From Fibrobacter sp. UWR3 (GTDB lineage Bacteria; Fibrobacterota; Fibrobacteria; Fibrobacterales; Fibrobacteraceae): a stretch of DNA of 64,000 bases. The number at the start of each line of letters is the position of its first letter. Position 1 is the stretch's first letter. The position numbers and the translations under genes were made by a program. The notes under the pieces were generated by a model. That model did no database searches, was not told where the DNA came from, and saw nothing but the letters and a program-made list of their open reading frames with translations. Shown in pieces: positions 1,091-47,821 of the stretch. The DNA is taken from contig NZ_FRCW01000015.1 of NCBI RefSeq assembly GCF_900143055.1, positions 1 through 64,000 of the forward strand. Direction: 5' to 3'.

Positions 1091-7283
<6,193 letters not shown>

Positions 7284-10331: not shown

Positions 10332-10338
10332 TATGAGC

Positions 10339-11874
10339 ATGGATTCCCAGACGATAGTCGCTCCGATGACCCCCTCCGGCGTGAGTGCCGTGGCCGCGCT
10401 CCGCGTGAGCGGAGCCCACGTCCGTGACGTGGTCGCGCGCCTGTTCGGGAACGAGCGTCTAGAGAATTTGAAGGCGCGCGAGGCGTGCCTCGGGACTGCG
10501 CGTGACCCGCAGTCGGGCAAGCTTATCGATAGCCTATTGTACATCTTCTTCGAGGGCCCGAATTCCTATACCGGCGAAGACGTGCTGGAACTCTACCCGC
10601 ACGGGAACCCGCTTATCGTACGCGACCTGCTGCAGGCAATCCGCGGGCTCGATGGCGTGCGCCTTGCCGAACCCGGGGAATTCACGCGACGCGCCTTCCT
10701 GAACGGCAAGATGGACTTGACGCAGGCCGAATCCGTGGCCGACGTGATTCACAGTGCGAACCGCGCAGAACTCGAGAACGCTCACCGCCTTCTGGGGGGC
10801 GCCCTCTCGAAAAAGATTGCGGCACTCGCTTCGCAGGTCAAGGACATCTCGGCGCGCCTCGAACTCGATGTGGATTTCGCGGAAGAGGAGGCCGATCCGG
10901 ACTTTGCAGGCTGGGAGGCGCGGTTTGTTGCTGTCCGCGAATCCATCCAGCAAATTTTAAACAGCTTCCACGGGAAGGCTTCGCTTAGCAGGCTCCCGCT
11001 GGCCGTGCTCTACGGCGCGCCGAATGCGGGCAAGTCAAGCCTCGTGAATGCCCTCCTGGGCGAAGACCGCGTGCTCGTGAGCAACGTTCCGGGCACTACG
11101 CGCGACTTTGTGGAAGTGCGCCTGTTCTTGCCCGGTGGCGAAATCCGGCTGGTCGATACCGCGGGCATCGCGGCGCAGGCGACGGATGAGCTTGACGCTC
11201 TCAGCCAGAAGAAGAGCAGGGAAATTCTCGAAGAAGCCGACATGAAGATTCTCGTGCTGGACGGGGCTTTGCGGAAGTGTCGTTCTCGCGAAGGCGAATT
11301 AGCATCTCGTCATTCTCGCGAAGGCAAAATTGCTTCTCGTCGTTCTCGCGACGGCGAATTAGCATCTCGTCATTCTCGCGAAGGTGAATTAGCACCTCGT
11401 CATTCTCGCGAAGGCGAATTAGCATCTCGTCATTCTCGCGAAGGCGAGAATCTTAGAACGTCCACCTTCGCGGACATGGCAAATAACGCGGACCTTGTCG
11501 TTTATTCCAAGAGCGACCTGCGTGCATCCCCCGACAGGAACGGCGCATCCCCGATTCCCGATGGCGGACTGAGTGTTTCTTCCAAGACGGGCGAGGGGCT
11601 CGACGCTCTCCGACAGGCGATGAACGCCACCCTGTTCAAACAATCTGCGGACGCAGAAGACCTCTGGATTACGAGCGAGCGCGAGAAGGCCTGCCTCGAA
11701 GACGCCCTTGCGGGTATCGACCGCGCGCTCGACCTGCTCCGGAACAATCCTGCAGTCGAACTTTTGGCTTTTGAAATGCAGGTGGTGCGTCGTGCACTCC
11801 AGAGCATAACGGGCGAAATCTCGTCCGAAGACATTCTACAATCTATTTTCGCGGGGTTCTGCATTGGCAAGTAG
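10339..11874 (+). CDS. mnmE: tRNA modification GTPase MnmE with an internal repeat insertion
   Basis: MnmE, with MnmG, builds the 5-carboxymethylaminomethyl group on wobble uridine 34. The N-terminal folate-binding domain starts DTIVAP-like (DSQTIVAPMTP). The G domain shows GAPNAGKSS, GTTRD, DTAG and SKSD, and the protein ends in the hallmark CIGK. At 511 residues it is about 57 longer than E. coli MnmE (454). The excess is residues 315-374: six 10-residue units of the form (H/R)SREGELASR, encoded by 30-bp tandem repeats. They sit between the strand ILVLDGA and the G4 motif, on a surface loop. The other motifs are intact, so it is probably functional. The 3' end overlaps the next gene by 11 nt. 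Confidence 0.95.
   Translation: MDSQTIVAPMTPSGVSAVAALRVSGAHVRDVVARLFGNERLENLKAREACLGTARDPQSGKLIDSLLYIFFEGPNSYTGEDVLELYPHGNPLIVRDLLQAIRGLDGVRLAEPGEFTRRAFLNGKMDLTQAESVADVIHSANRAELENAHRLLGGALSKKIAALASQVKDISARLELDVDFAEEEADPDFAGWEARFVAVRESIQQILNSFHGKASLSRLPLAVLYGAPNAGKSSLVNALLGEDRVLVSNVPGTTRDFVEVRLFLPGGEIRLVDTAGIAAQATDELDALSQKKSREILEEADMKILVLDGALRKCRSREGELASRHSREGKIASRRSRDGELASRHSREGELAPRHSREGELASRHSREGENLRTSTFADMANNADLVVYSKSDLRASPDRNGASPIPDGGLSVSSKTGEGLDALRQAMNATLFKQSADAEDLWITSEREKACLEDALAGIDRALDLLRNNPAVELLAFEMQVVRRALQSITGEISSEDILQSIFAGFCIGK
11281..11460. repeat. six 30-bp tandem repeats inside mnmE
   Basis: Units start at 11281, 11311, 11341, 11371, 11401 and 11431. Each keeps the reading frame (10 codons). 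The last unit retains the full palindrome ATTCTCGCgaagGCGAGAAT. This is the core of an intergenic element of the GTCATTCTCGCGAAGGCGAGAATCT type, seen as a GC-rich version at 43534-43558. An insertion followed by tandem expansion is the simplest history. Confidence 0.9.
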
Positions 11875-13636: not shown

Positions 13637-13716
13637 TAGTCATTGGTCATTAGTCATTGGTCATTAGTTGCTGGTTATTATTCATTCCACATTTCACATT
13701 CCACATTCCACATTAT
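13637..13716. repeat. TCATTGGTCATTAG array followed by a TTCCACATT array
   Basis: Repeated words GTCATTGGTCATTA are followed by three copies of (A)CATTCCACA-like words. This is a left-arm-only relative of the element at 10234. It fills the divergent gap between two genes and abuts both of their promoter-like boxes. Confidence 0.5.
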
Positions 13717-14567: not shown

Positions 14568-14616
14568 GTCATCCCCGCGACCTGTGGTGAGCGTCGCCGA
14601 ACCAAGGCGGGGATCT
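14568..14616. repeat. intergenic palindromic repeat
   Basis: A 49-bp element beginning GTCATCCCCGCGACC and ending GGCGGGGATCT, with complementary ends. It is nearly identical to 47712-47760 and to the copy inside pyrG. Confidence 0.75.
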
Positions 14617-36112: not shown

Positions 36113-36200
36113 CCGAACCAACCAGCAACCAATAACCATTGACTAATAACTAACAACCAACAACTAATGACTAATGACCAATAACTAATGACTAGTCAAT
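36113..36200. repeat. TAATGAC/TAATAAC word array
   Basis: The array has about ten 7-nt words (CAATAAC, TAATAAC, TAATGAC, CAATGAC and CAACAAC variants). Its end is read in frame as the last residues (LLTSH) of the GH3 gene on the minus strand. Confidence 0.6.
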
Positions 36201-37320: not shown

Positions 37321-37427
37321 AGCCAACCAGCAACCAATAACTAATAACCAGCAACTAATAACTAATAACTAATAACTATTGACCAATGACCAATGACCAA
37401 TGACCAATGACCAATGACCAATGATCA
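37321..37427. repeat. long TAATAAC/CAATGAC tandem array
   Basis: About fourteen consecutive 7-nt words: first CAATAAC/TAATAAC, then six or more exact CAATGAC. It fills the gap between the GH3 start and the topB stop and has no coding potential. Confidence 0.75.
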
Positions 37428-37432
37428 ACCAA

Positions 37433-43533: not shown

Positions 43534-43558
43534 GTCATCCCCGCGAAGGCGGGGATCT
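43534..43558. repeat. intergenic palindromic repeat
   Basis: GTCATCCCCGCGAAGGCGGGGATCT has the arms ATCCCCGC / GCGGGGAT. It is the GC-rich counterpart of the unit expanded in mnmE. Confidence 0.75.
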
Positions 43559-47711: not shown

Positions 47712-47760
47712 GTCATCCCCGCGACCTGTGGTGAGCGTCGCCGAACCAAGGCGGGGATCT
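47712..47760. repeat. intergenic palindromic repeat
   Basis: A 49-bp copy nearly identical to 14568-14616 (GTCATCCCCGCGACC...GGCGGGGATCT). Confidence 0.8.
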
Positions 47761-47796: not shown

Positions 47797-47821
47797 GTCA
47801 TCCCCGCGCAGGCGGGGATCT
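47797..47821. repeat. short intergenic palindromic repeat
   Basis: GTCATCCCCGCGCAGGCGGGGATCT, a one-base variant of the element at 43534. Confidence 0.75.

Follow-up and report, generated by a model that had tools for sequence, protein, structure and literature searches.

An in-frame array of CGTC-type palindromic repeats in a hypervariable loop of the Fibrobacter tRNA-modification GTPase MnmE

The mnmE Gene and Its Repeat Array

The window, which is the whole 64,000-nucleotide stretch of Fibrobacter sp. UWR3 DNA analysed here, harbors on its forward strand an mnmE gene (10333-11874) encoding a tRNA U34 modification GTPase of 513 aa, and the ORF listing revealed no stop codon anywhere in this frame, repeat array included. 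The protein matched the Pfam domains TrmE_N (intact), MnmE_helical, and MMR_HSR1; it scored 288.8 bits with the NCBIfam equivalog TIGR00450, exceeding the cut-off of 252.6, and 337.7 with NF003661, below that model's own cut-off of 380. The G1 motif GAPNAGKSS, the DTAG motif, and a C-terminal CIGK were also present. By TIGR00450, the G motifs, and the C-terminal C(I/L)GK, the gene is identified as mnmE, and both GTPase and tRNA-modifying activity are predicted for its product. The G4 motif (11506-11517, +) reads SKSD, the canonical form being NKxD. Among the Fibrobacteria examined (L031-L060, L171-L184), [ST]K[SCAQ]D takes the place of NKxD in every Fibrobacter and in most of the others, and two genomes of the same order (G037 and G038) carry RTRxD. 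Outside the two variable sites described below, protein identity was 83-92% and dN/dS was 0.07-0.13, which indicates purifying selection. A second mnmE of comparable score was not found in the same genome. Two differing mnmE genes were seen in another assembly (G032; L077, L078), possibly reflecting contamination, which is reported at 5%. A single-sequence AlphaFold model of the protein had a mean pLDDT of 40, and no reading given here rests on it.

Between the strand ILVLDG and G4, TRF detected an array of period 30 at 11279-11447 (5.6 copies, 87% matches, score 275), and a repeat search of the window recovered copies in register at a spacing of 30. Together with the codon listing, these searches delimited five 30-bp half units (11278-11427, +), each composed of the left half of a palindrome plus a spacer, and encoding in frame CRSREGELAS, RHSREGKIAS, RRSRDGELAS, RHSREGELAP, and RHSREGELAS, in this order. 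The sixth unit, which continues in codons as RHSREGENLR, contains a full CGTC-type REP (11428-11454, +) encoding RHSREGENL and consisting of the tag CGTC (11428-11431), the stem arm ATTCTCGC (11432-11439), the loop GAAG, the second arm GCGAGAAT (11444-11451), and the tail CTT. This unit folds into an 8-bp stem with a 4-nt loop at -11.6 kcal/mol, a stability reached by only one of 200 shuffles; many shuffles folded equally well in the case of the two half units so tested. The 24-mer GTCATTCTCGCGAAGGCGAGAATC had one match in the window at three or fewer mismatches, with none expected. The first-pass annotation had described an in-frame, six-copy repeat of ten codons within the G domain, in which the last unit alone keeps the full palindrome, and TRF, the open frame, the MMR_HSR1 match, and the fold agree with it on these points.

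The full palindrome is adjoined by a second palindrome, inverted and degraded (AGAACGTCCACCTTCGCGGACATGGC; 11455-11480, -), recognised by alignment with an intergenic copy (L002) and with the mnmE of another species (L107), so that the element-derived stretch extends to about 11480. The extent previously proposed (11281-11460) falls short at its end. The insert amounts to 76 aa, 30 of them charged (39%), a figure that replaces the earlier estimate of about 60 charged residues. The element sequence is open in five of the six reading frames. Relative to the unit shared with Fibrobacter sp. UBA7003, the half units show 0-4 differences per 30 bases and are not conspicuously recent. Eight of the 10 base changes involved alter the amino acid (one at the flank junction) and two are silent, which gives no sign of conservation in the units.

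A Dispersed Family of CGTC-Type Palindromes

The palindrome is not private to mnmE. Its degenerate form, GTCATNCNCGCNNAGGCGNGNATCT, had 105 exact matches in the 3.55-Mb genome, in which the reversed pattern used as a control had none, and the family was present in 35 of the 37 genomes of the genus. A second repeat class, GTCATCCTGAGC...GAAGGATCT, had 28 copies in the same genome and was likewise found in 35 of 37. When one genome per species was scanned for the exact 25-mer, 18 stretches were recovered, of which 14 belonged to Fibrobacter, two to Acidocella, one to Gracilibacterium, and one to Wocania.

Several features place these elements with the CGTC REPs. The tag at 11428-11431 lies unpaired outside the stem in the predicted fold; the 8-bp stem and 4-nt loop fall within the 8-9 bp (beginning with AT) and 4-5 nt typical of the class; and the 105 copies are dispersed, 85 of the 101 inspected not being in frame within coding sequence. 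Most copies end in CTT or CTA in place of the usual, non-obligatory CCA tail. Among 30 copies inspected in the genome, additional GTCAT-side units of the same orientation were found upstream in 22 and downstream in six, counts that are not fully independent since some loci overlap. These counts indicate that half units plus a full palindrome are a common build.

A profile search found no Y1 transposase (PF01797) in the UWR3 genome (G000), which rules out a RAYT/Y1 enzyme of its own as the mover of the elements there. Such a transposase occurs in seven of the 23 genomes of the genus searched, and neither a transposase nor an insertion intermediate was identified for these elements.

Further CGTC-type REPs were noticed in the window at 4373-4421, 14568-14616, 43534-43558, 47712-47760, and 47797-47821; in three of these, the arms are separated by a longer insert (e.g., CGACCTGTGGTGAGCGTCGCCGAACCAAGG) resembling a nested element. 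The window also contains arrays of 7-bp units at 13637-13714, 36127-36194, and 37325-37428 (CATTCCA, AACTAAT, and TGACCAA).

Palindromes Inside Other Genes

In the survey of 101 exact palindromes of the genome, 16 were located in frame within genes and were flanked on either side by sequence with coding signal. The coding calls relied on a simple home-made dicodon score, with Pfam or NCBIfam support for most, and the gene counts were taken from this survey; a restricted palindrome scan of 344 kb undercounts intragenic elements. The genes concerned encode BirA, TilS, UvrB (two elements), HrpA (two), a CobA-HemD fusion, and a U32 peptidase, in addition to a glycosyltransferase (L285:829-1785, -) and a Gfo/Idh oxidoreductase (L293:3-1757, -), both of which possess half-unit arrays of their own (CHPREFT-CHPREFN-SHPREFN-CHPREGGDL in the former and AGMTSGAEC repeats in the latter). 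The occurrence of intragenic REPs in several frames and in both orientations is expected, because all but one of the six frames of the element are open.

Some additional cases were observed. The CobA-HemD fusion (L288:144-1901, -) apparently received several repeat-derived insertions from differing classes. In another Fibrobacter, a DusB-like tRNA dihydrouridine synthase (L103:2-1219, +) carries RHSREGENL in frame, bringing to three the tRNA-modifying enzymes with a REP (MnmE, TilS, and the DusB-like protein). In a lipoprotein-like gene with a Fib_succ_major domain (L024:1440-1554, -), the N-terminal stretch CHPGLLSSSRRRGSIHF preceding the hydrophobic segment is made of REP sequence.

Hypervariable Sites in MnmE and HrpA

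The comparison of MnmE from 34 Fibrobacter species revealed two hypervariable sites. Site 1 (11263-11496, +; 78 aa here) begins at the G of LDG and ends immediately ahead of VVYSKSDL, and site 2 (11521-11568, +; 16 aa here) lies between G4 and SSKTGEG. Across these species, site 1 measured 13-78 aa and site 2 measured 8-98 aa, while the distance from G1 to site 1 (83 aa) and that from site 2 to the C terminus (101 aa) were the same in 34 of 34 species. All inserts had lengths that are multiples of three and were free of stops. In the other families of the class, site 1 comprised 13-36 aa and site 2 comprised 8-13 aa.

The occupants of these sites varied and included HPERNEVESKDL, VIARSEATKQS, DGGSGAAMT, DERRETRDER, and EFGVRNSEFGV, among others; in some species, the loop was occupied by tandem repeats of the heptamer or GACGAGA type. 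The loop of one genome (G024), for instance, is filled by a unit (GAACAATTAAC...) comparable to the 7-bp type of the window. The REP tags GTCAT/ATGAC numbered 36 in 4.6 kb of site DNA versus 51 in 41 kb of flank, i.e., they were 6.4 times denser in the sites (Fisher, 2e-14). A recognisable repeat was found in at least 23 of the 34 species; the remaining 11, in which the patterns used recognised none, suggest that part of the variability may correspond to ordinary indels or decayed elements. A constant copy number and a loop of the same sequence in distant MnmE proteins were both looked for and not seen. Judging from these comparisons, the tolerant MnmE loop is apparently being rewritten by selfish-looking DNA, since most related species examined carry other repeats in the equivalent loop.

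A comparable situation was found in HrpA, whose loop between motifs I and Ia measured 6-53 aa in 27 species with constant flanks. Differing repeats occupied this loop, near-empty forms existed in some species, and near-empty and occupied loops (L123, L120) differed by a bounded element.

Origin and Growth of the Array

The structure in mnmE is a composite of half unit(s), a full palindrome, and a degraded inverted second palindrome. An equal composite lies at the equivalent place in the mnmE of Fibrobacter sp. UBA7003 (L107, G064), where the locus is syntenic and the flanks share 90-92% DNA identity with those of the window; in this species, a single half unit precedes the full palindrome, which gives two units versus six and an MnmE of 478 versus 513 aa. 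In the UWR3 genome itself, the intergenic copy C12 (L002) consists of half units, a full palindrome, and a second, inverted palindrome that is intact, folds into two hairpins, each with an 8-bp stem and a 4-nt loop, and is 84% identical to the mnmE composite over 170 bp. C12 has four half units in this genome and one in each of two others (G030 and G079). The only half unit of G079 is equal to the outermost and most diverged one of the UWR3 copy, which indicates that growth happened adjoining the full palindrome.

The two-unit form of UBA7003 and the comparison with C12 support one insertion followed by tandem growth, as the first-pass annotation had suggested. These alignments show growth at two loci in the lineage of the window, one coding and one non-coding, and a unit number that varies from species to species; at first reading, such variation had been proposed between strains. 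An assembly artefact was ruled out, because in-frame inserts occur in dozens of independent genomes and a sister array exists elsewhere.

Interpretation and Alternative Explanations

We consider it highly probable that the array results from the nearly neutral, selection-filtered insertion and slippage of a CGTC-tagged REP composite in a permissive MnmE loop. A composite of half unit, full palindrome, and inverted second palindrome, belonging to the family scattered over the chromosome, would have entered the G-domain loop in frame before the window species and UBA7003 separated. The left-half unit adjoining the full palindrome would then have multiplied from one to five in the lineage of the window, with replication slippage at the hairpin as the probable mechanism. 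The insert, which would be translated, falls where other MnmE proteins have helix alpha-3, in a loop that is presumably exposed and may be nearly neutral. Its persistence would be due to the tolerance of the loop, to a unit length of ten codons, and to an element sequence with five open frames out of six. Frame-breaking insertions would be removed by selection, and the same filter could account for the in-frame REPs of HrpA, UvrB, TilS, BirA, and other genes.

It had been proposed earlier that the unit number tunes MnmE, with GTPase or tRNA-modification activity being adjusted through selection or phase variation of the repeat number. The copy number does differ (two versus six) between related species, the array keeps the frame, and the loop adjoins G4. 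However, the loops of sister species hold sequences that are unrelated and differ in frame and orientation, some as short as 13 aa, most changes among the half units (8/10) alter the amino acid, equal growth took place at the intergenic C12, and the elements are also present in many unrelated proteins, so that tuning is left unsupported and is regarded as quite unlikely. DNA slippage alone in a low-constraint loop, the resemblance to dispersed repeats being secondary and no element having been inserted, would agree with the heptamer-type and GACGAGA-type repeats that fill the loop in some species. This is even less probable, given that the palindrome, the half units, and the inverted partner recur together at C12 (84% identity over 170 bp) and that a bounded element separates near-empty from occupied HrpA loops.

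Ribosome skipping at hairpins is known from mitochondrial bypassing elements, and the insert, which forms a hairpin within a conserved gene, might similarly be skipped by the ribosome or removed post-transcriptionally. Skipping would not need inserts that are multiples of three and stop-free, as all those of the 34 species are, and this makes such an explanation very improbable. A decaying pseudogene tolerating any insertion could also be imagined, considering the large insert within a conserved domain and the replaced asparagine of G4. This reading, the least credible here, is already for the most part refuted, since dozens of species show purifying selection and unbroken frames: the frame is open, the flanks retain 83-92% protein identity with dN/dS of 0.07-0.13 and invariant lengths in 34 species, S or T at G4 occurs across the class, and the genome has no second mnmE of comparable score.

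Beyond the selection-filtered insertion of a REP composite into mnmE, it is tentatively suggested, as a possibility on which we lean slightly to the doubtful side, that short repeats, the CGTC-type REPs among them, remain mobile in Fibrobacter, repeatedly entering or replacing each other in the same few protein loops (MnmE and HrpA) without a Y1 transposase, and thereby giving conserved enzymes new, species-specific peptides at a fixed address.

Comparison with Known Systems

In-frame palindromic elements were already known from the Rickettsia RPEs and from the CGTC and GTAG REPs of other bacteria, UvrB included, and differing REPs were reported at about one site in recB of Xanthomonas. In the literature searched, whose coverage is incomplete, no description was found of Fibrobacter palindromic repeats or of CGTC REPs in Fibrobacterota. 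Within these bounds, and with priority not certain, the CGTC REPs of Fibrobacter, the tandem half-unit arrays within genes, and the genus-wide turnover of differing repeat families at one MnmE and one HrpA loop would be new. These findings extend CGTC-type REPs and in-frame protein insertion to another phylum, and they provide a natural series, spanning over 30 species, of unrelated peptides that refill a single loop in a conserved GTPase at fixed flank lengths. In Fibrobacter protein annotation and structure work, such segments should be masked.

In its predicted anatomy, the mnmE palindrome matches a CGTC-tagged REP, CGTC-1 in particular, apart from the tail. Like the CGTC REPs described by Di Nocera et al. 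(2013, PMC3733652), the Fibrobacter elements present a CGTC (or TGTC) end tag, an 8-bp stem beginning with AT, and a 4-nt loop; they form inverted dimers and are mostly intergenic, with a minority in genes, among them those for UvrB and for tRNA-modifying enzymes. No dedicated transposase is associated with CGTC REPs, a published remark with which the lack of a Y1 transposase in the UWR3 genome agrees. They differ in the CTT tail, that of CGTC REPs being usually CCA, and in the tandem same-orientation half-unit arrays common in Fibrobacter. The dRS3 repeats of Neisseria are also palindromes of the CGTC-1 type (PMC3733652), although they mostly occur in large clusters. The RAYT-associated REPs and REPINs of the GTAG type are likewise short palindromes, often in inverted pairs; in Fibrobacter, however, the tag is CGTC, GTAG is absent, and the UWR3 genome has no PF01797 transposase.

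The closest parallel in behavior is offered by RPE-4, RPE-6, and RPE-7 of Rickettsia (Ogata et al.; PMC3767692), which are palindromic, contain the ATGAC motif, and lie in frame in conserved proteins, and whose orthologous sites may carry differing elements. Conserved proteins with palindromic insertions in frame were equally found here (MnmE, HrpA, UvrB, TilS, BirA, and others). By this likeness, drawn from published descriptions, the Fibrobacter elements would work like RPEs, and they are not filed as RPE-1 to RPE-7. Two differences stand out, namely that the occupants of the Fibrobacter MnmE loop clearly come from differing repeat families and that one Fibrobacter lineage expanded the unit in tandem. 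Every Rickettsia ortholog examined has an insert at the equivalent site, which may represent a single old insertion that diverged (PMC3767692). Because the occupants in Fibrobacter clearly differ in repeat family, this genus makes it possible to test the question raised by the Rickettsia RPEs, whether such a site is an insertion hot spot or reflects a single old insertion that diverged.
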